DNA of 64,000 bases from Ischnura elegans. Lineage: Eukaryota > Arthropoda > Insecta > Odonata > Coenagrionidae. The stretch is from NCBI RefSeq assembly GCF_921293095.1, contig NC_060254.1, positions 868,001 through 932,000 on the forward strand. The letters are read 5' to 3'. The notes under the pieces were generated by a model. The model saw only the letters and a list, made by a program, of their open reading frames with translations, was not told the DNA's origin and made no database searches. Both the position numbers and the translations under genes were made by a program. This document shows, one piece after another, positions 5,927-62,999 of this stretch (positions are counted from its first letter, which is position 1; each line of letters starts with the position of its first letter).

Positions 5927-6985
5927 TTGAGCACTTCCCTCTTCGATTTCTTTTCCCCGTTGGAATCATCTATGATCTGGAGATCATCATTATGTCATGC
6001 TGATCTTCATTATTGTGGCTCCACTTCTTGAGTTTTCCATCGCACATATATCTCTTTTCTTTAATTTAGCAGTGGTTATTTCTTTTGGGATCCCTTTCCT
6101 ATTTTTCCCAATAGTTCCCACAAAATGAGTCTTTCTCTCAAAAAGCTTTTCCAGAAGCTCAATGGAGGTGTAGTAATTGTCTGTGCTTACCACTCGTCCT
6201 CGGTCCAAATAAGGTTCCATTAAAGTCATGACTATCTTAGTAGCCATACTGAGATTCACACAGCGTTCGCATATCCCTTTCCCTGCATAATAAATAATCA
6301 CCTTGTAGGTGTAACTGTGCTGTGGGGTTGCATATCCTTTTGAACTCCTTCACACCGTACCTTGCTGCCTTCAAGGGCATATATTGTCTAAATATAAGGT
6401 GCCCATGGAATAGTACCATTGACTCGTCAAGTACTAGGAACTTTCCTGGTGTTTTAACTTCCTTGTACCGCATCTCAAGCATATCCAGTAGGGGCTGAAT
6501 TTTGTGCAGGCGGCCGGAGTTAGGATCATTTGGACCAAAATGCCAAAATTTTAAGATCATTTGAAAGCAATTGCGAGACAAGACTTTCCTGGCAACACCG
6601 TTTTCACATATTGTATGTATAGCCTCAGACCAGTAGTGTGTAATTAGAGCTGGCAGTTTGACGAGTCCCATCCAAATGCAAAGGCCTAAAAACTCTTCCA
6701 TTTCTTTCCGAATGATATCAATCCAAGTTTTTACCCTGCTTGAGTGTTTAAATTGGTGGGATGCAATATAGTCATCTGCATTGATATTTGTGTGTGTCAC
6801 CATTATAATCGATGATTTCATTGGTAAGTGGTAACTGGTTTAAACATCCCTTGGCGTCAGCGTTCTCTTGTTGCATTCTAGATTTATTAATTCTGTATCT
6901 GTGAATGGAATTACACGTTGCCCGCCAATGATTGTCCCCAAGACGTTTTTTCTTGATTACCAGTGTCGGCATTCAGACTGTCTAT
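5927..6985 (-). pseudogene. piggyBac transposase, catalytic core (DDE_Tnp_1_7)
   Basis: Two overlapping minus-strand frames together cover the core. One (6821-6237) has FLGLCIWMGLVKLPALITHYW, then LDMLEMRYKEVKTPGKFLVLDESMV with the first catalytic Asp, then FRQYMPLKAARYGVK. The next (6301-5990) has PYLDRGRVVSTDNYYTSIELL with the second catalytic Asp, then GTIGKNRKGIPKE. The upstream part (6972-6772) gives the region before the core in another frame. At least two frameshifts and a TAA near 5990 break it. The order and motifs are those of piggyBac, and the TTAA-type elements elsewhere in the window could have used such an enzyme. Confidence 0.85.
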
Positions 6986-11753: not shown

Positions 11754-13364
11754 GAAATATTACATGAAGTCTGATATTAATTTTCTTTTTTGACACCTAA
11801 CACTAAGGAAATAATTGATATTTACCCACATAAGTTAAAACTTTTCCCAGGCTCTTATTTCTTTCATTCATTCCCCAGAGTGCATTGAGAGGATAATGGA
11901 GATATAGGGTAGATAGAGACAAGGGAAAGGAATATGACTGCTGGCAAGGGAGAGTGAGAACAAGTTGGGTAAGGTGGAATTGCCAATTTAGTTTTGCCTA
12001 GTTAGGATGCGTGGCTAAGGCACCTTCATTTAGTTTTCAAGTGGATAGATAAAAAATTATCTGGCAATCCTCTTGAAAACCTGACCAAAGATAGATTCTT
12101 CACCCCACCAACTCAAACCCACGTAAACACAAGGAGAATACAATTCTCATTTCATCCTGATTACCATGTTACTTGTTAACCAACAGAAATAAAATCATTA
12201 TTATTATTATTATAAGAGGACTTCAGAAGTGAAGTGGAAACATCGGCAACAAACCCACGAGAATGTGAAGCTACCCAAGAACCCTTTCACCATTTACTGA
12301 GGGAAGGTGAAGAAGTTAAGAAATGCTTCAGGTGCAGCCCATCAAAATGAACCAACCCAAAATAGGCCAGGTGACCAGAAATCTGTTTTGGTGTATGCTC
12401 GTGAGGTATGCAGGATACTTATATTGATGCTTTTTGCTGTAGAGTCGCACATATCAGAAAATCATACGTTTCATTAAGTAAGCCCTACCTACATTTCGTT
12501 TGCATTATGCTGTAAATTAAAGACATCATTATAGCTATTCACAGACATTATGGAAATGCAACTACATCAAAAATGGAGTTTCTAAAGGTAGATGCCCCTG
12601 AGCTACTGATGTCCTCATCAGATGTGTTGTTGGTAGTGACCGCAAAGGAAAAATTTTTTTGGGGGGGAAGACCCTCCCCTGGCAATGTGAATGCCCAAAA
12701 ATGCATTCCCCCCAAAAGTTTACCTCCTTCAAAACTTTTTATGGCTGAAGCCTTGATGTAGCTGTTACTGTGTACTATTTAATGCTCTCTTCAGGTGACA
12801 TCCTACATGGCCCCATAACTCCCTACACCTAGGAATGGGCATTCCTTGCTTTTAAAATTGACACTCCAACAGTCAAGAACTTCAAAATTGATTAATTACA
12901 CTAATGCAAAACTCACAATTATCCAAATGCGCTATAACGGACATTTCCATTTCATAGTCCCATGCTTCAACTATGAATTAGAAATACATGGAACATTTCC
13001 GATACATTACTGAAGGGCCTTGCCATGCGAAATGTTTTTGCTTGGACCTTGTAGTTCACCTGGGCTGGGGTGCATTCTGAATAATGCATGATGTGCATCA
13101 ATGCACATCAAGTCCTTCCAAATCGAGCATCACACCGCATTAATGTGGCCCTACAGGGAGCATATTTCAAGGTTTGGGATGCATCTGCTTGTGTCAGAAA
13201 TTCTTGATGCAGTGAATGCAAAATGCAATTCTTACAGAAAAAAAAAAATGATGAATAATTCACACATAATTTCTATCAACATTTTCAGTCCAACTTACAT
13301 TATCATCGTTACTCATTGTTTACTTGCCTATCATGATAGTTATGATTGAAAATCATTAAGATAT
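11754..13364. other. Non-coding stretch with an (ATT)n run
   Basis: AATAAAATC followed by (ATT)n at about 12190-12215 resembles a LINE 3' tail, but no RT sequence precedes it. A G/C homopolymer patch lies at 12655-12720. Otherwise no gene or inverted termini were recognised. Confidence 0.4.
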
Positions 13365-13526
13365 TGTAACGTAAGACAATTAATTTTCATAACCTTTTTT
13401 ATTTACTTCAATTCTCTCCACAATACTCCACAAAACCTCTCCTTTTTCACATCTCTCCCAACAATCCCCTCTCCCAAACAAACCCTTCACAACCAAAATA
13501 ACAACTTCAAAAAATCAGACGTTACA
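13365..13526 (-). repeat. 3' LTR of the Gmr1-type element (162 bp)
   Basis: Begins TGTAACGTAAG and ends CAGACGTTACA on the plus strand, giving TG...CA termini. It matches 18742-18893, differing mainly by an extra ACTCCACAAA-type segment near 13426. The outer flank is the target duplication ATAT. Confidence 0.93.
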
Positions 13527-13545
13527 GTCTTTCCTCCCCCTTTTA
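13527..13545 (-). promoter_or_regulatory. Polypurine tract of the Gmr1-type element
   Basis: On the minus strand AAAAGGGGGAGGAAAGAC directly abuts the 3' LTR. This is the expected primer site for plus-strand DNA synthesis. Confidence 0.85.
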
Positions 13546-13661
13546 AGAAATTTGTCCATAAATGTTTTAATGCTTCAATCACTGGACAAAATTTTATTGC
13601 GATGCCGTTGGAGTACCCCTTGCCAGATGGTGCCACACCCGAACACTTACCGACTTCCAAT

Positions 13662-14241
13662 CTATTTGATGTCGCCCATCGCCCTGCTTAGCGCATCCGC
13701 GTTCTTATGAGCTGACCCCGGCCGATGCACGATCTCAAAGTCGTATTGTTGAAGCATCAATGACCATCTCAACAGCCTTGGATTACTTCCTGACGTTCTA
13801 TCTAGCCATCGTAAAGGATTGTGATCTGACACTACCTTAAAAGGTCTGTGGCCATCTAGATAAACGTGGAGTTTTTTTTACCCCCCAAACTATTGCCGCA
13901 CATTCTTTTTCGATGGTGCTAAACTTACGTTCGGTTTTATTGAACTTCTTACTCAAGTATACAATTGGGTGTTCATGTCCTTGATTATCTGCTTGACTAA
14001 GAACTACGCCAATTCCCAAATCCGAAGCATCCGTTTGCAACACAAACTCTTTGGAAAAATCTGGTGCACTAAGCACCGGTTCCGCCACCAGCATCTTCTT
14101 CAACTTATTGAATGCATGATTGCATTCCTCAGTCCATTCTATCTTGCCTTTCTTGGATTTCCCTTTTAATGCATCTGTTAAAGGTGCTGCTATACGAGAA
14201 AAATCAGGAACGTATCTTCGATAATATCCTGCCAATCCCAA
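13662..14241 (-). pseudogene. RNase H domain and RT connection, Gmr1-type element
   Basis: The frame 14241-13837 opens with MGLAGYYRRYVPDFSRIAAP, the connection just after RT, then FVLQTDASDLGIGVVLSQ with an RNase H catalytic Asp, and KFSTIEKECAAIVWG with a catalytic Glu. A frameshift in the homopolymers near 13870-13885 moves the rest to another frame: DHNPLRWL, then IVHRPGSAHKNADALSRA with the final catalytic Asp, and a stop at 13662. A second frameshift at about 14265 separates it from RT. RNase H removes the RNA template during reverse transcription. No integrase follows it, confirming the unusual order. Confidence 0.9.
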
Positions 14242-14249
14242 GAAACTTC

Positions 14250-15482
14250 TTACCTCTGTTTTGGACTTTGTGTCGGGTACTGTCTCACAGCCTGAATCTT
14301 CGTGCCTACCGGAGACAGTTTACCTTGTCCTACCATGTGACCAAGATACTTCACTGAATGCTGAGCGAGTCTACATTTTCCTGGTTTTATTGTTAAATTT
14401 GCAGCTTTGATTCTAGTCATTACTGCTTCAAGATGTTTCAAATGTTCATCCCAAGTTTCTGAAAATACAGCTACATCATCAATATATGGCACAGCAAATT
14501 TCTCTAATCCTCTAAGTACTTCAGTCATTAAACGGCAAAAGTCATGTGGAGCATTTTTCAATCCAAAGGTCATTCGTAATGGTCTAAAAGTTCCAAAACT
14601 GGTTATAAATGCAGCGTAAATACTTGCAGTCATGGGAATCTGCCAGTAACCCTTAGTTAAATCAAACAAGGTTATGTACTTAGCTCGAGCTACTCGCTCC
14701 ACGCATTCCTCTACGTTAGGTACCGGAAAATACTGTGTTTTAATTTTTTTGTTCAATCTTCGATAATCCACAAATGGTCTTGGGTCTTTCCCCGGCACTT
14801 CCACCAAAATCATTGGAGATGTGTATTCGGAAGGGCTCTCTGTGACTATTCCCATATCCACCATCTTTTTCACCTCCTTCTCCAAAATCTCCGTTTGCCG
14901 TGGTGACAAACGATATGGCTTGATTTGCACCTTCTCTGAATCGACTAACTCGATGTCATGCTGTATTATATCTGTAATACCGGGTTTATCCGTAAATATT
15001 TCTGCATACATCTTCAACAATTCCCTAAGACTACTAATTTGAGAAAAATTTAAACGATCAGGTAATGAACTTGCTTTGATCCATTCTAGATCTTTGGGGT
15101 TGTTGTCCTGAACAATCTTCGTTTCACTGTCAGGGGCTTGTGATAAAAAATTTACTATCACCTCCATCGTTTCTCTTTTATGGTATTTTTTTATCATATT
15201 CACGTGGAATACTTGAGATTTTGCCCGTCGCCCAGGCAAGCTGACCACGTAGTTTGTGTCGGAGAGCTTCTTCTCAATAACACCAGGACCCATCCATTGT
15301 ACAGATAATTTGTTCTTCCTTCCCGGCATTAATACCAGAACTGAATCCCCCGTTTCAAAACTTCTGTGAGTTGCATGACGGTCATAATATATTTTCCTTT
15401 TAAGCTTCTCCTCCTCCATTTTCTCCACTGCCAGTTCACGTGTAACTCTGAGTTTATTCAACAAATTAAACACATACTCCAC
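14250..15482 (-). pseudogene. GPY/F module plus reverse transcriptase, Gmr1-type element
   Basis: 410 codons. Residues about 44-100 are the integrase C-terminal GPY/F module (TGDSVLVLMPGRKNKLSVQW, then GPGVIEKK). A linker follows, then reverse transcriptase: FVDYRRLNKK, LFDLTKGYWQIPM with the first catalytic Asp, RMTFGLKNAPHDFCRLM, and YIDD at about 333-336 with the other two. KYLGHMVG lies in the thumb. The presence of GPY/F immediately before RT shows the domain order is genuine and not two adjoining fragments. The frame runs directly out of the integrase frame except for the 64-bp duplication at 15472-15547. Confidence 0.93.
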
Positions 15483-15547
15483 CGGTTTTCAACATGGTTT
15501 TTGTAGAAAAGCTAAGAAATTTCCTTCCAAACATTACATACTCCACC
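15472..15547. repeat. 52-bp insertion flanked by a 12-bp duplication
   Basis: ACATACTCCACC occurs at 15472-15483 and again at 15536-15547. Between them lie 52 bp (15484-15535) with no match in the rest of pol. Removing one repeat plus the 52 bp (64 bp) would rejoin the integrase and GPY/F frames, so this is a secondary event in this copy. The source of the 52 bp is unknown. Confidence 0.75.
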
Positions 15548-16299
15548 ACTGATTGTTCCTCCGGATTCTCTTCCAACCATTTTTCTTGTATCAACGTTAA
15601 TGGGGTACGTAAGTTTTTTCCGTATACCAATTCGGCTGGTGCAAATCCAAGACTTTCATGTGTAGTGGTCCTCAATGCAAATAAGGCAGCCGGCAGATAT
15701 TTGTCCCATTCGTTTCCGAAATCTACACTCATAGCTCTTAAAACCTTTTTGAGTGTTCGGTGCATTCTTTCAACCGGATTAGACTCAGGATGTTGAATAG
15801 ATGAATATACAATACCAATACCACACTTGTTAAAGAAACTTGTAGTCAGCTCACTGGTAAAAGACGTTCCACGGTCCGACTGAACTTCATGTGGGAAGCC
15901 TATTCGACAAAATAAGTCAATTAATACCTCCACAATTGTTGGTGAAGAAATATCCTCAATCGCTATTGCTTCGGGAAATCTCGAAGACACGCATATCGCC
16001 GACAAAATATACCTCTTTCCTGAACTAGTTTCTGGTAGTGGTCCACAAGTATCGATGTTAATTCGATAGAAAACTTCTGACATAGATGGAACAATGGTTA
16101 AGGGAGCTTTCTTTCTGTCACCTCCCTTCCCAGCCTTTTGACATGCATCGCACGTTCGTATGTAATTTTCCAGGTCAACATACCACTTTGGCCAATAAAA
16201 ATAACGCGCTAGTTGACTTTTTGATTTTGTAACACCTAAATGGGCTAGCGTTGTCTCATGGCGTAGTTGTAAATTCTGAAATCTATACTGTGTTGGTAT
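15484..16299 (-). pseudogene. Integrase, Gmr1-type element
   Basis: The frame shows an HHCC zinc domain (H15, H21, C51, C54 of the open frame; HETTLAH and CDAC), then the catalytic core: NIDTCGPLP (D84), EVQSDRGTSF (D143) and NPVERMHRTLK (E178), a D,D35E arrangement. ALRTTTHESLGFAPAELVYG is the usual motif after the core. The enzyme would insert the cDNA into the genome. The N-terminal side is interrupted at 16300 by a 201-bp TIR element, and the C-terminal side by the 64-bp insertion. It lies upstream of RT. Confidence 0.93.
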
Positions 16300-16500
16300 C
16301 ATAGGCGGATCCAGGGGGGGGGCACGGGGGCACGTGCCCCCCCCAGACCCTTAAAAATATGCTAGATTTTTAATACGGTCCCATTATCATTTCGTTCGTT
16401 TTGTATGACAACGTATTCTTGTGCCCCCCCCTAACCAAAATCCTGGATACGGCCTTGCTTGTGCCCCTCCCAGAAAGAAATCCTGGATCCGCCCCTGGTA
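16300..16500. mobile_element. 201-bp GGCGGATCC-type TIR element (copy 1), inside gypsy pol
   Basis: Starts CATAGGCGGATCCAGG, ends CCTGGATCCGCCCCTG, rich in G/C runs. GGTAT lies on both sides (16295-16299, 16501-16505). Removing it rejoins the pol frame between codons for NLVVIP and TQYRF. A second copy is at 26633-26836. Confidence 0.8.
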
Positions 16501-17309
16501 GGTATTACAACTAAATTCTTCATTTCGTTTAACTTATCCTTTCTTCTCAGAACAAGCACTTTGTTTCTAAGAAAAAATCCTTCTTCATTCTTGCTCTCTG
16601 CCCCTGCGGGTTTTAATTCCCGAAAACATTCCTGTAGCGATGAGTCATTTTTCTGTGCTTCAATTAATTCATCTTGTCTTATTGAGATCACGCTATTCGC
16701 CTCTTTCGGCGTTCTGCCGACTTCAAACCGGCATCCTCCTTCTTGATTTGAGTCTCTATCGCCTATTTCCTCTGAAGATTCCTTATTTTTCCCTTCTTCC
16801 ATATGTTTTATTCGTTCCGCTTCTAATTCACCTCTTCTCTTTGCCGCTCGAGTCTGCAACGTATTTATCCAATGTTTTTCTTGTTGCTCTAATTGAGATT
16901 TTTCAATTAGTTCTGCGGTGGTATTTCCCAAAATATATACACCGCGATCCAAATCATTCTGTACTACCACAGCCTTCCCAAATACTCGACCGAACTCTCC
17001 AATTACTTCTACTTCTGCTATAGGAAGAAAACGATCGCGTACTTCTAAAGCTTGCTGTATCCAAACAGTTTCTCCTGTATACATGTGTGGGGCAACATAT
17101 TTCTGAGCCACTACATCGATTGTTGCACCTGTATCTCGTAATATCTTCATTGAATACCCATTTACCATTCCCTCTGTCAAGTATTTGCCAAACATATTTT
17201 TATTATTTTCATTTTTTAAAGAACCAACGAATTCTTTTTCTTCGTTATCCTTAGTTTTTTCTTTGGGCAATTTGCGAGAAAATGTTGAGTGGAACCACAC
17301 CCGTAGCAC
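16501..17309 (-). pseudogene. Protease-containing start of pol, Gmr1-type element
   Basis: About 270 codons before the TIR insertion. It contains MKILRDTGATIDVV near residues 55-68, where DTG is the aspartic protease active site that matures gag-pol. A charged linker follows (AAKRRGELEAERIKHMEEGK). It overlaps the 3' end of gag by 94 bp in the -1 frame, so it would be made by -1 ribosomal frameshifting, common in gypsy elements. The overlap includes an A-rich tract (AAAGAAAAAACTAAGG) that could act as the slip site, though no perfect X-XXY-YYZ heptamer in the gag phase was found. Confidence 0.8.
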
Positions 17310-18367
17310 TTGGGTTGAAACCTCTTTTCGAAATTAAGCCCCGAAGACGATGATTTAGGCATCTTTTCCATAGCCAAGTCACGCCTTTCTTCATCAGAAT
17401 TTACAGAAACAGTCTCCGGCTTTGTAAACTGGATCCTTTTATTTTGTTGATCCTTAATGTAATGATCCGTGGTTTTCCGTCCCATGCTTTCTCTAATAGC
17501 ATCAAAACTATCCAACTTCTCAGCCAATACATTCGGATCCTTAAAATTTGGCCATTCGTCTATCAGGAGATCTCGCACCTCTATGGGTACTTTTCTTTTC
17601 ATCTGATCAGTCACCATCAGTCCTTTTAACTCCTCAAAAGAAATTATATCCATCCCGTCAATCCATCCTTGGAAATAATTAGTCATTTTATATACTACAT
17701 CACTCCACGCCATACCATTTGATTTGGACTGCTCGTAAAATAACTGTCTGAACATTTCTGAGCTCAATTTGTATTTCTTAAGCAGTAAATTTTTCACAAA
17801 TTCATAACTATCAGCTTTTTCCCTAGGTTCTCGAGAAATTATATCATTAATCTCGTTTGATAGTAATCCCGTCAAGTAAAATACTAATTGGTGTTCCGGA
17901 ATACCGGCCCTATCTGCCTGCCTTTCAAAACGTTCAAGATATAAACTAATGTTTTCCCCGTGAGGATCAAATTTATCCATAAGCCGAGTTATATCTATTT
18001 TCGGCAGTGTCCTCTGAGCGGTCTCCGTCTCCAATCCATCACACTCGCGGTTTAAATTGGTTTGTGAAAATTTTAGTTTCTCCATTTCTAACTGAAATCT
18101 TCTCTGTCTTTCAGCGTCTTCTCGTTCCAATCTTCTCTCTTCCGCTTCCCGTTCTAATCTTCTCTCTTCTGCCTCTCGTTCCCGTTCCAATCTTTTCTCT
18201 TCAGTCAAAAACTTCAGCATCTCTTTAACAAATTCCTCATCATAATCTTTACTTTTTAGTATCGCTTGTTTGTACTCTACGACTCTAGCTTCCCTCCCCA
18301 CGTCAGCTCCTACTTCATATGCGATTTTGCACAAAACATCTTTAGGGACTCTAGCCAAATACGACAT
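17216..18367 (-). CDS. gag, Gmr1-type element (383 codons, intact)
   Basis: Begins MSYLARVPKDVLCKIAYEV. Residues about 50-95 are a highly charged repeat of EERRLERE type predicting a coiled coil. A retrotransposon gag region follows (FERQADRAGIPEHQLVFYLT, later FRQLFYEQSK). The zinc knuckle CYGCGSTQHFLANC at about 354-367 (C-X2-C-X4-H-X4-C) binds RNA, and a basic tail follows. Gag forms the virus-like particle that packages element RNA. The frame is uninterrupted, unlike pol. Confidence 0.9.
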   Translation of the reverse strand: MSYLARVPKDVLCKIAYEVGADVGREARVVEYKQAILKSKDYDEEFVKEMLKFLTEEKRLEREREAEERRLEREAEERRLEREDAERQRRFQLEMEKLKFSQTNLNRECDGLETETAQRTLPKIDITRLMDKFDPHGENISLYLERFERQADRAGIPEHQLVFYLTGLLSNEINDIISREPREKADSYEFVKNLLLKKYKLSSEMFRQLFYEQSKSNGMAWSDVVYKMTNYFQGWIDGMDIISFEELKGLMVTDQMKRKVPIEVRDLLIDEWPNFKDPNVLAEKLDSFDAIRESMGRKTTDHYIKDQQNKRIQFTKPETVSVNSDEERRDLAMEKMPKSSSSGLNFEKRFQPKCYGCGSTQHFLANCPKKKLRITKKKNSLVL

Positions 18368-18741
18368 TGTTTAAGTTTTTCTGCAAATCTATCACCTAAA
18401 CAACTCACTAAAATGAGGAAGTCAGAAACAGCACCCAGTATGCTCACACCATCCGGCAAAAAGGGTACTCACCTTTCCCGAAGCAAAAACGCCACACCAG
18501 CGAATTAAACTTCCACTTCTTCCGAAAAACACAAAGTCGTCTTTGCTTGCAGCTCCAACTTCTCAATGTGCGTCCTTCCTTGAAGCAAATACCATCTCCA
18601 GTCCGCTTCCTCGAACCAGCAACCGTTCCAACGCTCAACCCGGCCGCTGCGTCTTCTCAATTTCACTCAGGCTAATTTTTCCAAACCTGTGTCAAACATC
18701 CCATCCTCGTCGCCAGAAAAACGTGGGCTCACACTTACGTC
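18368..18741 (-). other. 5' untranslated leader of the Gmr1-type element with probable primer-binding site
   Basis: On the minus strand TGGCGACGAGGATGGG begins at 18715, 26 nt inside the 5' LTR. TGGCGACGAG also follows directly after the 5' LTR of the gag-only element (33615), so it is probably a tRNA primer-binding site. The 26-nt gap is larger than usual. Confidence 0.55.
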
Positions 18742-18893
18742 TGTAACGTAAGACGATTAATTTTCATAACCTTTTTTATTTACTTCAATTCTCTCCACAA
18801 TACCTCTCCTTTTTCACATCTCTCCCAACAATCCCCTCTCCCAAACAAACCCTTCACAACCAAAATAACAACTTCAAAAAATCAGACGTTACA
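18742..18893 (-). repeat. 5' LTR of the Gmr1-type element (152 bp)
   Basis: Matches 13365-13526 with TG...CA ends and a few substitutions plus one small indel. Followed by the ATAT target duplication at 18894-18897. Confidence 0.93.
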
Positions 18894-18897
18894 ATAT

Positions 18898-20090: not shown

Positions 20091-20109
20091 TAGATCATTA
20101 ATGTACGAA

Positions 20110-21690
20110 ATAGACCAATATCTATTTTGTCAGTTTTCTCCAAGCTATTTGAAAAATTATTTTATACACGACTGCTGGGCTATTTACTATCTTGCAACTT
20201 ACTCTGTGACAACCAGCATGGTTTTAGACCTGGCAAATCCACTATCTCTGCCTCTTTTGAGCTAGTTGATAACATCTTACTTGGCCTAAATGACAAACTC
20301 CTAACTGTAGGAATTTTCTTTGACTTAACTAAGGCCTTTGACCTAATTGATCATAGTATCCTAAAAAACAAGCTCATCACTCTTGGCATCACTGGTCCTG
20401 CCCTAAAATGGATTATGTCCTACTTAAGTGACAGACAACAAGTTGTTTGTTATCCATATGGATCCTCAACTATAAAATCTGGTCCCTTGAAACTAACCAG
20501 AGGTGTACCTCAAGGATCTCTCCTTGGTCCACTGCTTTTTTTACTTTTTATTAATGACCTTCCGAATCACTTGTCACATGGTAGAACCATTCTTTATGCA
20601 GATGACACCTCCACCATTGTCACAGCCAAAAGTGCTCAACATTTGGTGGACATCACTAATTTGACCATTAAGGAAATGCATCAGTGGTGTAAAAACAACA
20701 ACCTCATTATTAATGAAGATAAAACTCTCTTCATACAATTCTCATTAAAAGCTCTAACAAGAGAGTTCTTCTCCCTCATATTAATAATATTAATCACTCC
20801 ACAAATGTAACTTCAACAAAGTTCCTGGGGTTCCTAATATCAGATGGCCTCGATTGGTATCCTCATATTCAGGCCATAATCAATAAAATTTCTGTGGGTA
20901 CTTATATGATCAGGAAATTATCTCCTATTGTGTCATTTGAAACCCTGAAAATGGTTTATTATGCCAAAGTACATGCTCATATTTCCTATGGAATATTGCT
21001 TTGGGGAAATTCAACTGCTGCCAAAAAAGCCTTTTCTGCTCAGAAAAAGGCAATTAAGACTATGCATCAAGTTCCTATCCGCACCCCTGGCAAGCCCCTC
21101 TTTGCTGCATCAAAAATCCTAACACTCCCTTCTCTCTATATCCTGACATGTGCCAACTTTATTAAAGCAAACCTTGATAAATTTCCTTCTAATGCCACCT
21201 TCCACCATCACCACACAAGATCAAGTAATAATATACACCACAAGCAGTACTCCAGCTCCCTCTGTTTAAAGGGTCCCAGGCATTCAGCCTCTGCTATATT
21301 TAACAAAATCCCTGACGAAATAAAAGATTGCACCTCAATTTATGTATTTAAGAACAAGCTGAAACTCCTTCTCTCTAAAAAGTGCTATTACAGCATTTCC
21401 GAATATATGGAAGATAATTTGTAATTATGATAATCTCCATGATGCTAGTTGTGACATCTTATTTTGTCCATACTATTGTATTGTACTTATTATTTTCATC
21501 AATTCTTATGTATTTAGAAAAATTATTTTTATTGTTTCCATGTAAATTGTAAATCTTGATGACACATCATCATTGTATTTTTATTTGATATTTGTATTAG
21601 CTTTTTTATGATGTAGCCATGCAATTGTACTCTTGCCAATCGGTGAAATAAATTATTATTATTATAATTATTATTATTATTAAACAAGAC
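20110..21690 (+). pseudogene. LINE, reverse transcriptase to 3' tail (plus strand)
   Basis: From 20127 the frame has QHGFRPGKSTISASFELVDN, FFDLTKAFDLIDHSIL with a catalytic Asp, LTRGVPQGSLLGPLLFLLFI and ILYADDTSTIV with the YADD box. After one frameshift near 20800 it continues KFLGFLISDGLDWYPHI and then, in the 20894-21424 frame, HAHISYGILLWGNS and FKNKLKLLLSKKCYYSI to a stop. AATAAATTATTATTATTATA follows as the 3' tail. This is the jockey/CR1 group. It is 5'-truncated, lacking endonuclease and the RT N-terminus. Confidence 0.85.
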
Positions 21691-22873: not shown

Positions 22874-23565
22874 TCACATTGTCTTTTTCACATATTTTTG
22901 AGGTTCTCCTACCGAAGTGGAGGCCTTGCTGTTCTTTCGCGTGACCATGCGATTTACCTGGACAGAATTGGCATCAATTGATTGCTCCACTTTATCTGCT
23001 AGGTGTTTCATCCCATCCTTGGATACGGAACTCCCAAGAAACTGCACCTCGGCAACACCAAATACGCATTTAGCACATTTAATTACAACACCGAAGTCAC
23101 GCAAACAGCCAAACAACACTCATAAATGGCGCTCATGCTCTAGTTCATTGACAGAGGCAACCAATACATCGTCCATGTAAGCATAGCAGAAATTCTGTCC
23201 TTTCAACACTTCAGCAATAAATCTTTGGAAGGTCTGTGCTGCATTTTTTAGCCCAAAAGTCATCACTGGAAATTCGAACAAACTGAAAGGAGTTATGATT
23301 GTTGTTTTTGGGACATCGTCACTGTTCACGTGAATTTGATTAAATGCCCGCACGAAATCAATTTTGGAAAACACAGCTTTACCACACAAACCGAGCACGA
23401 AATCCTCTATGTGTGGCACGGGATAGCGGTCGTGTATGGCCCTGGCGTTCAACCCACAGTATTCTCCACACAAACTCACGCCACTCATCACCAGTCTTAG
23501 GGCTAAATGAAGAGCGGAAGACCAGCAGTTGTCGGATCTGCGCGCAGTTCCTAATTTCACCATTT
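22874..23565 (-). pseudogene. Second gypsy element: RT, minus strand
   Basis: The frame 23563-23120 has CWSSALHLALRLVMSGV, CGEYCGLNARAIHDRYPVPH, FSKIDFVRAFNQIHV with a catalytic Asp, MTFGLKNAAQTFQRF and YMDDVLVAS with the other two. It continues, after a shift, with FGVAEVQFLGSSVSKDGM in the thumb. It ends near 22874 against LINE sequence. The upstream domains of this element lie on the opposite strand from 23566, so RT has been inverted relative to them or two copies adjoin. Confidence 0.85.
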
Positions 23566-25328
23566 CTGTTGTCTGTTCCTGGGAAGGACAATACCGTTGC
23601 TGACGCGATGTCTCGAGTGGAGGAAATACCTGGTCCCATTAATTTTGCATCATTGGCTGATTCCCAGTTACATGACAAAGAGCTGTCCGATTCTTTCCAA
23701 CACTCCTAGCTTGTGTTCAAGGAAATTCTACTTCCAGGATTAGAGAAGCCCCTTATATTTGACCTTTCCACCAAAAATGCTCGGCCATTTGTCACATCAC
23801 CTTTCCGAAGGCAAGTGTTTGCATCCTTCCACATCCTTTCTCATCCTGGAGTTCGACAAACAACACAGATGGTTGCAGAACGTTTTGTGTGGCCATCCAT
23901 GAGAAAAAGATTGTCGTAATTGGGTCCGTTCGTGTCTGCAGTGTCAGAAAAACAAGGTGACGCGACATGTCCTTTCCCCTTTGGGTGATTTCCCTCCGAC
24001 AAGTGCAAAGTTTCAGCATGTTCATATTGATATTGTTGGTCCTCTCCCTAGCAGCCAAGGGTTTCGTTTTGTTGACTTATGTGGCTCATTTCAGCCGTTA
24101 GCCTGAAGCCTATCCACTAGTGGATGCCTCTGCTGACACAACGGCCAGGCTGTTCTTTCAGGAGTGGATATCTCGGTTAGGTATGCCTCTCCACATCACA
24201 ATCGACCAGGGGAGGCAATTTCAGAGCAGCCTGTTCCATGGGTTGATGAAACGCACTGGCACGAACCACCTGAGGACTACGACTTACCATCCTGCAGCTA
24301 ATGGGATGGTGGAACGGTTCCATCGTCAGCTGGAGGCCGCCCTACGCTGCCACTCTGATCAGCAGTGGTATGAGGATCTAGCTACTGTACTTCTGGGAAT
24401 GCGAGCAACCTGGAAAGAGGACCTGCATGGCACACCTGCTGAGGTGCTGTATGGTCAGCCCTTAAGACTGCCTGTGGAATTCCTTTCTCAATCACATAAT
24501 GAGGTAACCGCTGATGCAGACTATGTTACTTCCCTACGTGGGTATATAAGCAAGTTCCGTCCTCAGCAAGCCACACACAATGTTTTTGTTTTTAAAGATT
24601 TGCAAACATCCTCACATGTTTTCTTGAGAAATGACATAGTGCATGCTTCACCTTACGATGGCCCATTTCGTGTAATCAATCGTGATTAAAAAAAAACTTT
24701 TACAATCAGTGTGCATGGGCGTGAAGTGGTAGTTTCAGTGGATCGACTGAAACCTGCATTTGTAGAGGATGACACAGTCACAGATACACCCTTTAGTGAC
24801 ACCCACATATCTTTGCCATTTAGTTTACCTCCAAGTATTCCACCTGTCAGCAGTCCCTCCCCTAGTGAATCTGCGAGTGACACAATAGTGCCACAAGTTC
24901 CTATCCGACGTACTGGGAGATGGGTGCCATTTCCACAGCATTTAACTGATTATATATTGCGAATACCAACGATAACAAGTGATAAATCTCTGATATTTCA
25001 TTCTTTATTTAGTGTCTATTTGTGTTTATTATTAATGCAGATGATTTTGTTGGGCATGAACACAGTTCACTTATGTATATTTGCTATTATGTTTGTTTTT
25101 CCTATCTCTTTTATCTGATCGTTTTTCATTTCTTTATGTAAGGGTAACATTTATGACAAGGCAAATAACTTTGAGCATTCTATTTTCTTTTTGGTTACTT
25201 AGCTTTTTCAACCAGTGTATCTTTGGGTATCCCTGGCAATGGGGATGAGTTGTTGAGTACCATATGTTTTTTGTGTGTTCTGTTTACTTATATCTCAAGG
25301 CATGCTCCACTACTGCCAAAGGGGGTTT
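23566..25328 (+). pseudogene. Second gypsy element: RNase H end, integrase and C-terminal tail, plus strand
   Basis: VPGKDNTVADAMSRVEE at about 23577 is the last RNase H motif. FHILSHPGVRQT (HH) and CLQCQ (CC) form the integrase zinc domain, with HVHIDIVGPLPS carrying the first catalytic Asp, TIDQGRQFQSSLF the second and NGMVERFHRQLE the Glu. AEVLYGQPLRLP follows, then SVDRLKPAF near 24735, the usual end of gypsy pol. A stop and frameshifts occur near 23919, 24100 and 24690. 25119-25328 is a spacer ending in a purine run AAAGGGGG at 25318, a likely polypurine tract. Confidence 0.88.
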
Positions 25329-26632: not shown

Positions 26633-26836
26633 TCATAGGCGGATCTAGGGGGGGGCACGTGCCCCCCCCCCCCCCAGAACCTTAAAAATTATGGAAGATT
26701 TTAGTAAAGTCCCATTATCATTGTGTTCATTTTGTATAACGAGGTATCCTTGTGCCCCCCCCCAGAACAAAATCCTGGACACGGCCTTGCTTGGGCGCCC
26801 CCCCCCCCCCAGAAACAAATCCTGGATCCGCCCCTG
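26633..26836. mobile_element. 204-bp GGCGGATCC-type TIR element (copy 2)
   Basis: TCATAGGCGGATCTAGG at the left, CCTGGATCCGCCCCTG at the right, flanked by a perfect 7-bp CTTACAC (26626-26632, 26837-26843). Collinear with 16300-16500, including the internal CATTATCATT...TTTTGTAT segment and long C runs. Confidence 0.85.
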
Positions 26837-38214: not shown

Positions 38215-38290
38215 GGTTACGGATCCAGTAGCGCTGTCGTTGGAGTGGACATGTTTTTTGGAGTGAATCGTCTGTTCGCTGAAGTCAACA

Positions 38291-38938
38291 ATGGCTACTC
38301 AGCACCACGAGATAGATTGGAGACGCACACCCATAGTTTTATCGGGAGAAGAAACTTACTTCGAATGGTCTATATGTACGCAAGCGGATTTAATGGCCAA
38401 GAATTGTTGGAATGCAATTGATCCTGGCTTTGGCAATGTGGAGGAGGTAAATGCTGATCAAGTGCATATAAACAGAAAGGCTCATTCCCATATCTTTTCG
38501 GTAGTTAGTGATGATATTTTGGAGGATATCGGAAGTATTGATAATGCACAGGAGATATGGGCTACTTTGGAGGAGATCTATACTTCGTTTACCACACTGC
38601 ACTCCGTCATCATTCTGAAAGAAATGGTAAGCTTCGTAAAAACTGACGACATGACGATGACTCAGTATTTTGCAAAATTCAGAGTGCTAACAGAAAACTG
38701 ACCAAAGGAGGAATACATTTTGACGATGCTGCCATTGCAATGTTCATTTTGGCAGGACTTCCTCTAAACAAATATGAGGGACTTGTTAGGTCGGTGGAGA
38801 ATCAAAACGTAACAACTAGACAAGTGAAGAAGTTACTTCTTATAGAAGAAAAGAGACAGAAAAGGAATGATGAATTAAAGTTGAAAGAAGATGAAGTGAA
38901 GGCATTGGCTGTTATGAGGAACTAGAATGTCAGAGTTG
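38291..38938 (+). pseudogene. copia gag-like region
   Basis: MATQHHEIDWRRTPIVLSGE, then YFEWSICTQADLMAKNCWNA and EIWATLEEIYTSF, the UBN2/gag-like domain of Ty1/copia elements. A TGA at 38701 and a frameshift near 38720 interrupt it; it continues as ILAGLPLNKYEGLVRSVENQ and a Lys/Glu-rich helix. Gag would assemble the particle. Confidence 0.8.
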
Positions 38939-39640
38939 CTAAATGGAAAGGGCTAACAGAAAAAAGTGATGACATGAAGAGTGGAATAACAAGAAATCAG
39001 GATCATCGCTTGAAGGTACACCACAACCACATTCAAAGACATTACAAGTGTTACACATGTGGAAAGTTTAGGCACATTTCCCACAATTGTACTGAACTTA
39101 AGGAGTATTGTCAATCAAGGCAGGTCAGAAACAGAGGTGAAGTTAAGACAGCAGTGAGTGAACTAGCCGAGAAAGTAGAGTGTGTTAAAGCATACTGTTC
39201 AGTAGGGAAAGCCATGTTGAAACAAAAGGAGTGGTACCTGGATTCCTGTTCTTCAGACCACATGAGCCCTATCAAAGAAGATTTTGTTGAGCTACAGGAG
39301 GATGTCTCCAGAACCATACGAATGGGAAATGAAGATGCAGCCATCATTGCAGGTAGGGGAATAGCATCAATTAAGACATCCATGGAAGATGGAGGAATGA
39401 CAGTGACCCTATCTGAGACATTGTATGTTCCTCAACTAGAGTGTGGGCTGATGTCAGTGTCAAAATTAACTGACAAGGGTTTGGACGTTGTCTTCTCCGG
39501 GGAGAAGAGAGTCATTCTCGATAATGGTAAATTAATCTTTAACGCCAGGAAAAGAGAGAGGGTATACGTTGTCAACACCTTGGGGAGTGAATGGACAAGG
39601 GAGAGCTGCGACAACAGTAATAAGATTATAACTGGCTAAT
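38939..39640 (+). pseudogene. copia zinc knuckle and protease
   Basis: CYTCGKFRHISHNC (C-X2-C-X4-H-X4-C) at about 39049 is the nucleocapsid knuckle. WYLDSCSSDHMSPIKEDF is the copia protease active site region, with DSC in place of the usual DSG, which would abolish or impair the site unless Cys is tolerated. LYVPQLECGLMSVSKLTDKG is the conserved segment downstream. A stop at 39640 and a shift lead to integrase. Confidence 0.85.
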
Positions 39641-40855
39641 AAGAGTAAAGCGGTGGTAGGAGTAGCAAGAAGAGCAGTTGGTGACGTCAAGACGTGGCAT
39701 CGGCGGTTTGGACATTTACATCGTGAGTCCTTGGTGAGCGTACGGTTCTTGAAAGACCTTAAGGGAGAGAAGGATTTAGGTGACTGTTCAGTTTGTAAGG
39801 AAGGCAAGTTGTGTAAATTTAGTTTTCCCAGGAGCCGTGTGGAGAAGTCTGAGCATCTGTTGGAGTTAATTCACAGTGACTTAATGGGCAAACTAACACC
39901 AGCTTCTATTGGAGGGTCTCAATATGTGATGACATTGATTGATGATTTTTCGAGGTATGTGACAGTTAAGTGTTTGAAAAATAAAAATGACGTACATGGA
40001 GAATTCCTTAAATTTCAAGCGTTGGTAGAAAAACAACATGGAAGGAAGATACTCAAGTTCCAATCTGACAATGGAGGGGAATACACTAGCAAAGAGTTTG
40101 AGAACCACTTGGAGCAAGAAGGCATATTTCATCGAAAAACTGTTCCAGGGTGACCACAAAAAAATGGAGTTGCTGAGAGACAAAATCGAACCTTGACTGA
40201 AATGGTGAGGTGCATGATGATGGAATCAGGATTACCGAAAAACTTCTGGGCTGAAGCCATGGTGACTGCAGCATTCATCAGAAATCGGTGTCCATGTGCT
40301 GCAATTCAACATAAATTTCCACTGGAATTATGGACTGGTCGAGAAATTACTCATGATGAAGTTAACAGAATCAAGGTGTTTGGATGCAAGGCATGGGCAA
40401 AGGGTTCAGAAGGAAACAAGCTAGACACTAAAGCAGAAGAATGCATCATGATTGGATATGAGGAGAGTACCAAGGATGGTTACAGACTTTGGAGACTGGA
40501 GAGATGCAGTATCATCATAAATGTTATGTTTCAGGAAGAATGTTTTCCATTCAAAGAAAAAGTGGGATGGGAGAGGGAGAAATTTTTCTCTATTTCAGAT
40601 GGAGCTGTCACTCCGGTTCCAGCCTGCACCATGATTAATGATGAGGATGGAGACAACCCCATTGGTGAGCTATTGGGAATGGGCATAACTCCAGGGGAAG
40701 TAATGGAAGGAGAGCCAGATGGTGACCAGGCAGAGCCAGTGGAAAATCAGCTCAAAGAACAGCCTGAACGAGGTGGAGTGGAACCACACCAGCAGTCAGC
40801 ACAGGAGGAGCCAAGAAGAACCCAAAGGCAGAGGAAAGAGAAGACATGTGGGTAA
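39641..40855 (+). pseudogene. copia integrase
   Basis: WHRRFGHLHRESL and CSVCKEGK form the HHCC domain. The catalytic core has LIHSDLMGKL, LKFQSDNGGEYTSKEFENHL and NGVAERQNRTL, giving Asp, Asp and Glu. KVFGCKAWAKG and KAEECIMIGYEESTKDGYRL follow. A TGA at 40153 lies just before the catalytic Glu. The tail 40640-40855 is acidic. In copia, integrase normally precedes RT, as here. Confidence 0.9.
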
Positions 40856-61394: not shown

Positions 61395-62999
61395 ATGCCT
61401 CCCATAAAGAGAAGTGTCCTTAGACTGCAAAATCTAAGAACGAATAATTCTAACGAGGAAAATAGTGAAAGAGAGAGACCGAAAAACTTGAGAAGACGCG
61501 ATAAAGTTACCATCGCCAACATTAATAAGTTTTTTGACAAGGTAAAATCAGGTGATTTGGTTATTGACACCAAAAAAGTGGTGTACAATACGGCAATTTG
61601 TGCAGGTGTGAGTATGAAGACTGTACGGAAGGTCATGAAAGAAAAAAGAGAAAGTGCCGATGGTGAAGTGTCTTCGCCGAAAAAAAGTTGCGGACGATCG
61701 CGCATTGTGCTCGATGAATTCACCCAAGGAGTTTATTCGCCGAAAAGTGCATGATTTCTATCACAAGAAAGAATTTCCGACAGTCATCAACATTCTGGAT
61801 GGATTGAAGTCGGATCTGGAGGATTTTCCTGACATAAGCTCAAGTACAATGTTGAGGTGGCTGAAAAGGCTAGGGTTCTCATTCCGGAAATTAAAAAAAT
61901 AAGCCCGTGCTATTGGAAAATCCGCGAGTGGTAGATCAACGAATGTTTTTCCTCCGAACCATTAAAAGACTTCGTGCCTCAGGCTGGTTAGTGTATTATT
62001 GTGATGAAACATGGTGCGGTGCTAACCATACTGTGAAATACGCATGGCAGGAAAAATTAATGAAATCAGAGGTGGAATTGATTTTGATCGAGGAATAATT
62101 CAAGAGGTAAATAATCACAAATTTCCATAATAAACTTCGCATATGTATCGAGAATTTTCCAATTTCACATTTAATTTAATCATCATGCGTAATAATGAAA
62201 TCAATAATTATCACTATTTCAGGTAAATGGCTGGAAAGGTGGAATTTTGACACCTTCGGGAGCAGGAAGGCGAGTGGTTATTCTGCACGTTGGAAGTGAA
62301 AGTGGTTTTCTCCAACCCGAGGAAGAAACAATGCTCGTCTTCGAAGGGAAGAAGGACAGTGCAGATTATCACTCCGAGATGAATGCTCTCCATTTCGAGG
62401 AGTATTTCAGAAGAATATTAAGGCATCTGCCAGAAAATCAGTTTTGGTAATAGATCAAGCGCCCTATCACACCATGCAGGATCCTCAGACAAAGAATCCT
62501 AATTTGAAGTGGACAAAGGTAGAAATTATTGACTGGCTTGTTAAGAATCGCATCGAGCCAGCTGTCAACGAAGATGGTACCCAAGATAATTATGAATCTT
62601 TAACAAAAAGTGAACTTATCGAGTTAGGAAAACAGAAATTTAAAACCTTTAGGTATCTCCATGATACTGTCATTCAGGAAAGTGGGAAAAGGGTAAAACT
62701 TCTGTGGACTCCAGTCGCACATTGTGAATTTAATGCTATTGAATTAATTTGGGCGTGGGTCAAAAACTGGGTGGCAAAGAACAATAAAACACATAAGATC
62801 AAAGATGTTCTTCAGCTTTGTGTTCAGGCTCTTGGAGACGTAACAGTGTCGACGTGGAAGAACGCTGTGGAGCATATTTAAAAAAATAGAAGACTACTAC
62901 TGGATAAAGGACCGTTTGGTGGAGGAATTCACCGAACCCATTATTATCAACTTGGAGGACGAAAGCAGCAGTTCTTGGAGTAGCAGCGATGAGGATTGA
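61395..62999 (+). pseudogene. IS630/Tc1-like DDE transposase with intron and long D-E spacer
   Basis: Starts MPPIKRSVLRLQNLRTNNSN. An HTH region (NTAICAGVSMKTVRKVMKEK) and a second DNA-binding part (SSSTMLRWLKRLGFSFRKLK) precede the core: YYCDETWCG (first Asp), LVIDQAPYHTMQ (second Asp) and HCEFNAIELIWAWVKNW (Glu). 95 residues separate the second Asp and the Glu, against about 34 in typical IS630/Tc1, and this spacer contains LTKSELIELGKQ. A 116-bp intron (62107-62222, CAAGAG/GTAAAT...TTTCAG) is supported by motif continuity. The C-terminus is acidic and Ser-rich (SSSSWSSSDED). At least five frameshifts occur, two in A7 runs, so either it is dead or the assembly has homopolymer errors. No terminal repeats were identified. 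Confidence 0.8.

Follow-up and report, generated by a model that had tools for sequence, protein, structure and literature searches.

The window, which covers 64,000 nucleotides of chromosome 9 in the damselfly Ischnura elegans, contains an LTR retrotransposon at positions 13365-18893 on the minus strand. Read along the element, its domains follow the order gag, protease, integrase, GPY/F, reverse transcriptase (RT), and RNase H, with no second integrase after RNase H. The features are collected in Table 1. Rfam and tRNA scans of the 64-kb window returned no match.

Table 1. Features of the element and its immediate flanks (window positions)
Feature	Position	Strand	Basis
Target site duplication ATAT	13361..13364	.	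identical to 18894-18897
3' LTR, 162 bp	13365..13526	-	repeat search and alignment
Polypurine tract adjoining the 3' LTR	13527..13544	-	from sequence
RNase H	13662..14241	-	Pfam RT_RNaseH_2 1e-34, frames
RNase H, N-terminal part	ORF 14241-13837	-	Pfam RT_RNaseH
RNase H, C-terminal part, other frame	end at 13662-13664	-	frame reading
Reverse transcriptase, YIDD	14334..15062	-	RVT_1 2.4e-26, match spans 14334-14789
GPY/F module (SH3-like integrase C-terminal domain)	15180..15329	-	SH3_Tf2-1 6.5e-8, Integrase_p58_C 3.3e-8
Integrase zinc finger and catalytic core	15598..16302	-	Integrase_H2C2 3.5e-15, rve 4.1e-8
Short insertion, protease/integrase boundary	16300..16497	.	flanks ATACCTAC / ATACCAAC
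Protease from DTGA motif (17124-17135) onward; N-terminal linker of integrase	16506..17135	-	motif, ORF 17309-16431
gag ORF: charged N-terminus, capsid, CCHC knuckle	17216..18367	-	
SCAN-like stretch of gag	about 17546-17761	-	SCAN E=0.11
Primer-binding-like site	18698..18715	-	26 nt inward from 5' LTR end
5' LTR, 152 bp	18742..18893	-	repeat search and alignment
Target site duplication ATAT	18894..18897	.	identical to left ATAT

The two LTRs differ by one substitution in 152 aligned bases and one 10-base gap, and both start with TGTAACG and finish with CGTTACA on the element strand. Integrase_H2C2 and rve were both matched by Pfam in the ORF 16302-15466(-), and SH3_Tf2-1, Integrase_p58_C, and RVT_1 all lie within the single ORF 15482-14250(-). 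The gag knuckle scored below the Pfam cut-off (zf-CCHC E=0.074), and the protease, which has no Pfam match in the window, was assigned from its DTGA motif and position. From the RNase H stop to the 3' LTR there are 135 bases, which is too short and leaves no room for a trailing integrase. The preliminary description is borne out: the element has a gag-to-RNase H order on one strand (by Pfam, plus motif and position for gag and protease), matching LTRs with a 4-bp target duplication, a polypurine tract with no later integrase, and a GPY/F module fused to RT.

The copy in the window is degraded, and because its reading frames are broken it most likely cannot make the element proteins on its own: the ORFs for gag, protease, integrase, RT, and RNase H lie in changing frames. 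A 198-bp repeat splits protease from integrase. It is flanked by 8-bp repeats that are alike at seven of eight bases, a further copy with 82% identity lies near 26633-26802, and its ends suggest a hAT-like origin. The identity of the LTRs points to a fairly recent integration of the element, in which case the frame breaks would also be recent or partly inherited. An A-rich run raised the idea of a programmed frameshift between gag and pol, which was rejected, since the related locus L030 has gag and protease in a single frame; open frames of more than 1,000 codons around RT or integrase in some genomic copies also speak against it.

A search of the I. elegans genome with the LTR scored 40 of 172 candidates, and all 40 were at least 96% identical. 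Among 20 regions around LTR matches, 13 held an LTR only within about 4.9 kb, and seven carried internal domains, none of which contradicted the integrase-first order. The full domain set lies between two LTRs in L018, and L021 has everything except one LTR. The remaining five regions hold partial domain sets, integrase and RT being found together only in L018 and L021. A 4-bp target duplication was detected by script at 12 of the 13 lone LTRs and by reading at the thirteenth (L020).

Integrase and RT matches were also paired by position. The pairing used 32 integrase and 31 RT matches, representing the element family and its nearest kin, from the 150 integrase and 142 RT matches listed (those that were scored among 3293 and 2675 candidates, respectively); matches of 32-40% identity were excluded as other families. 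Among the matches listed, 25 of the 32 integrases have an RT within 20 kb, and seven have no listed RT match nearby. Integrase is upstream of RT on the same strand in all 25 of these pairs, at a distance of 2 kb or less in 20 of them. Copies with RT before integrase, which the preliminary description had named as a finding that would count against it, numbered none among the matches listed. Two of the pairs share one RT match, and one pair is spaced 18.6 kb apart. Four of the 25 pairs are kin loci (integrase 53-56% and RT 54-58% identical to the window family), and these probably represent more than one family. As controls, four more distant RT matches, three more distant integrase matches, and L001 were read; the order was RT, RNase H, integrase at all eight of these gypsy loci, and likewise at L042. 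An integrase after RNase H was not found in L018 or L030. The integrase-first order is a property of the family, not an oddity of one copy. A conventional Ty3/gypsy element (Mag, CsRn1, Mdg, Osvaldo), with RT-RNase H before integrase, was rejected on the same count of listed pairs.

L030 is one of the nearest kin. It has 208-bp LTRs with one substitution between them and a CCCT target duplication. Its domains run gag, protease, integrase, GPY/F, RT, RNase H, and in the capsid region it shares 43% identity with the window copy. RT and integrase trees were built from 11 sequences, without clade names and with a midpoint root. The window element, L018, and L030 form one branch in both (100/99 for RT and 100/100 for integrase). 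On this comparison of sequences, the trees show a common history for the RT and integrase of the group, the clade itself being left unnamed. The alternative raised earlier, that RT and integrase might fall in unrelated clades, was checked against eight gypsy loci without clade names, and both proteins placed in the same integrase-first group.

The capsid provides a further character. The SCAN domain is reported to be homologous to the gag of Gmr1-like elements in the accessible portion of PMC4592553. A SCAN profile search of the 1.72-Gb genome, with 150 of 160 candidates scored, gave four places above the curated cut-off of 27 bits. Three of them are followed on the same strand, at a distance of 1,099-1,160 bp, by integrase matches 41-56% identical to that of the window, and the fourth has no listed integrase match within 6 kb. 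A listed RT match follows the integrase at just one of the four (C2:93359087-93362167). The SCAN match of L030 (E=4.9e-5, 23.5 bits) falls under the cut-off. The match in the window gag (E=0.11) is at the expected place and also below the curated cut-off; SCAN was absent from a scan of the whole window gag ORF and from that of one shorter piece. For the shorter piece, no solved chain was matched by sequence. A structure model of the window gag piece had low confidence (mean pLDDT 59), and of the 50 structural matches listed none carried the name SCAN or capsid and the top ones were middling and helical, a result that says nothing either way.

We consider this degraded element to belong, very probably, to a Gmr1-like Ty3/gypsy family in I. 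elegans, a comparison made with the named Gmr1 elements by description only. The integrase-first order together with the SCAN-related capsid in kin is good evidence for kinship with Gmr1, as far as sequence characters can indicate it. The arthropod host that the preliminary description had called probable is a damselfly, and the genome yields insect odorant-receptor matches (family 7tm_6; four matches of 14 candidates). Each of these has internal stops, which is to be expected when insect genes are read across introns. Odonates have few odorant-receptor genes. The proposal that the Gmr1 group reaches arthropods is supported in part, in its domain order and its host; its novelty for arthropods does not hold, since decapod elements were already described in the part of PMC3587641 available to us.

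Integrase-first order could instead have evolved separately, convergently with Gmr1, within a gypsy lineage of odonates or of arthropods. The RT tree joins the group of the window element, L018, and L030 to two conventional loci, L031 and L034 (95/98), as such an origin would allow, although this tie has no support in the integrase tree; moreover, the group was placed against loci without clade names. The SCAN-like capsid of the kin, a domain reported to be homologous to Gmr1-like gag (PMC4592553, in part), and the Gmr1-like elements already reported from decapods (PMC3587641, in part) argue against convergence, which we regard as improbable. A rearranged single copy, or two gypsy elements nested into a chimera and integrase-first in appearance only, might be suspected from the broken state of the window copy and its nested insertion, but the nested piece is the 198-bp repeat, one ORF holds both GPY/F and RT, the LTRs at both ends are intact, as is the ATAT duplication, and the uniform order among the listed pairs refutes it, leaving this explanation with next to no probability. 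A Ty1/copia element, for which protease, integrase, RT, RNase H is the usual order, is equally negligible, being refuted by RVT_1 with RT_RNaseH, by an integrase with a GPY/F module, and by the nearest solved structures, which are Ty3 for integrase (1.4e-21) and the Ty3-type 4ol8 and Ty3 RT for RT (2.9e-46). Copia-type RT is RVT_2; both this family and gag_pre-integrase are absent from the Pfam matches of the window. By Pfam and by its closest solved relative, Ty3, the window RT and integrase are of gypsy type, not copia.

The start of DNA synthesis in this Gmr1-like family may be unusual. An 18-nt primer-like site, which we take to be complementary to tRNA-Ser(GCU), is separated from the LTR end by 26 nt in all six copies that have the 5' junction (window, L015, L018, L021, L023, and L026). 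In L015, the site is 27 nt past the aligned LTR end. In L030, it was not found by exact search. A 7-bp inverted repeat straddles the LTR/internal junction. Solo LTRs with target duplications define where the LTR ends, so that priming of the textbook kind would produce a tail of 26 nt, and the integrated 3' LTRs are without it. The 26-nt spacer of these copies does not fit textbook priming. A tentative idea, and one we think rather doubtful, is that a Gmr1-like lineage has persisted in insects with its DNA ends made unusually, either by long integrase trimming or by use of a second, LTR-adjacent priming site. If true, integrase would trim a tail far beyond the usual 2-3 bases, or the second priming site next to the LTR would be used.

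The life cycle of an intact copy can be outlined from established LTR-retrotransposon biology, from which we infer its steps. Transcription would be driven by the LTR, and the single RNA would be translated as Gag-Pol. Gag would assemble the particle, and the protease would release integrase and RT-RNase H. RT would then copy the RNA, primed by a tRNA and at the purine tract, and integrase, made ahead of RT in the polyprotein, would insert the DNA with a 4-bp stagger. The altered pol order would thus shift the position of integrase in the polyprotein and leave the steps unchanged.

Should the assignment hold, it would extend Gmr1-like elements with linked domains, and with a SCAN-related capsid in their kin, to an insect. 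An insect member would suggest an old switch of pol order within bilaterians. It would also suggest that the capsid lineage thought to be the source of vertebrate SCAN domains is not limited to vertebrates.

Other sequence collections were searched for relatives. Viral contigs gave no close relative by RT, integrase, or RT alignment, and phages gave none by RT. Prokaryote genome contigs contained one distant conventional gypsy element, L001. Three plasmid records were matched by each of two queries. RT precedes integrase in NZ_CP087956.1, as read in the sequence, and in NZ_CP065945.1, by match coordinates. In NZ_CP065944.1, the best places for integrase and RT share a strand, with integrase first by 7.5 kb; these are the best of two places per query, and the record counts neither way.

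Among known systems, yeast Ty3 has the nearest solved RT and integrase to those of the damselfly element. Ty3 encodes integrase after RNase H. The Gmr1-like group includes Gmr1 of Gadus morhua, Saugg1 of Sparus aurata, and tunicate and frog members (PMC3587641, PMC8220671, PMC6238403, and PMC4131045, each in part). The damselfly family shares with this group the position of integrase upstream of RT and gypsy-type RT and integrase, its kin share the SCAN-like capsid, and it differs in its insect host. The 26 nt that separate its LTR from the primer-like site may be a further difference. In the available text of PMC11117352, four pufferfish Gmr elements have LTRs of 337-518 bp, compared with 152-162 bp in the window and 208 bp in L030.

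Gmr1-like elements outside deuterostomes have been described previously. No report of an insect Gmr1-like element was found among the matches listed from open-licence papers; in one insect genome paper the name occurs just within a DOI. Gmr1-like elements in arthropods being already known, the insect host may be the new part, and the novelty is modest. An annelid family, LGF3 of Lamellibrachia luymesi, was later placed in the Gmr1 clade (PMC8220671, in part) and resembles the damselfly family in lying outside deuterostomes, although its host phylum differs; according to the accessible text of PMC8556966, LGF3 was not recovered in a separate annelid analysis. In 2013, four crustacean elements related to the Gmr1 clade were called the first in protostomes, as given in the available part of PMC3587641. 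The same text covers the decapod elements GyRex4/GyRex5, Gychoro2, GyMaja1, and GyLiva4, which are likewise Gmr1-like with an arthropod host. There, RT/RNase H is known from GyRex4 and integrase from GyRex5, two fragments that do not overlap, whereas the damselfly element has gag, protease, integrase, RT, and RNase H linked together with its LTRs.

Within 18698-18741, a primer-binding-like site lies 26 nt inward from the end of the 5' LTR in the window copy of the Gmr1-like element. This offset is shared by all six copies read across the 5' junction (the window copy and L015, L018, L021, L023 and L026, other members of its family in the same genome), and the junction between LTR and leader is spanned by a 7-bp inverted repeat. 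The short repeat inserted between protease and integrase (16300-16497) occurs twice in the window, the second copy being at about 26633-26802; it contains G-rich stretches, and its translation contains a GRIQD-type peptide.

Pieces of a second gypsy element, distinct from the Gmr1-like copy, were found at 23120-24689. Its RT piece is on the reverse strand and its integrase piece on the forward strand, and the element is therefore rearranged. Remains of further transposable elements are listed in the table, among which the RT pieces appear, as read from the sequence, to be of the non-LTR retrotransposon type.

Remains of other transposable elements in the window
Feature	Position	Strand	Domains and basis
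piggyBac-like transposase, broken	5990-6839	-	DDE_Tnp_1_7
RT pieces	20094-21424	+	RVT_1 at 20094-20810
Ty1/copia element pieces	38267-40855	+	Pfam: Pol_BBD, gag_pre-integrase, rve; remaining pieces by reading
Transposase piece	62300-62881	+	DDE_3

Gypsy-type RT and integrase are also encoded in records labelled as Wolbachia or Bacillus plasmids (NZ_CP087956.1, which is L042, NZ_CP065944.1 and NZ_CP065945.1) and as an Acidobacteria bin contig (L001), all of which look like eukaryotic contamination.
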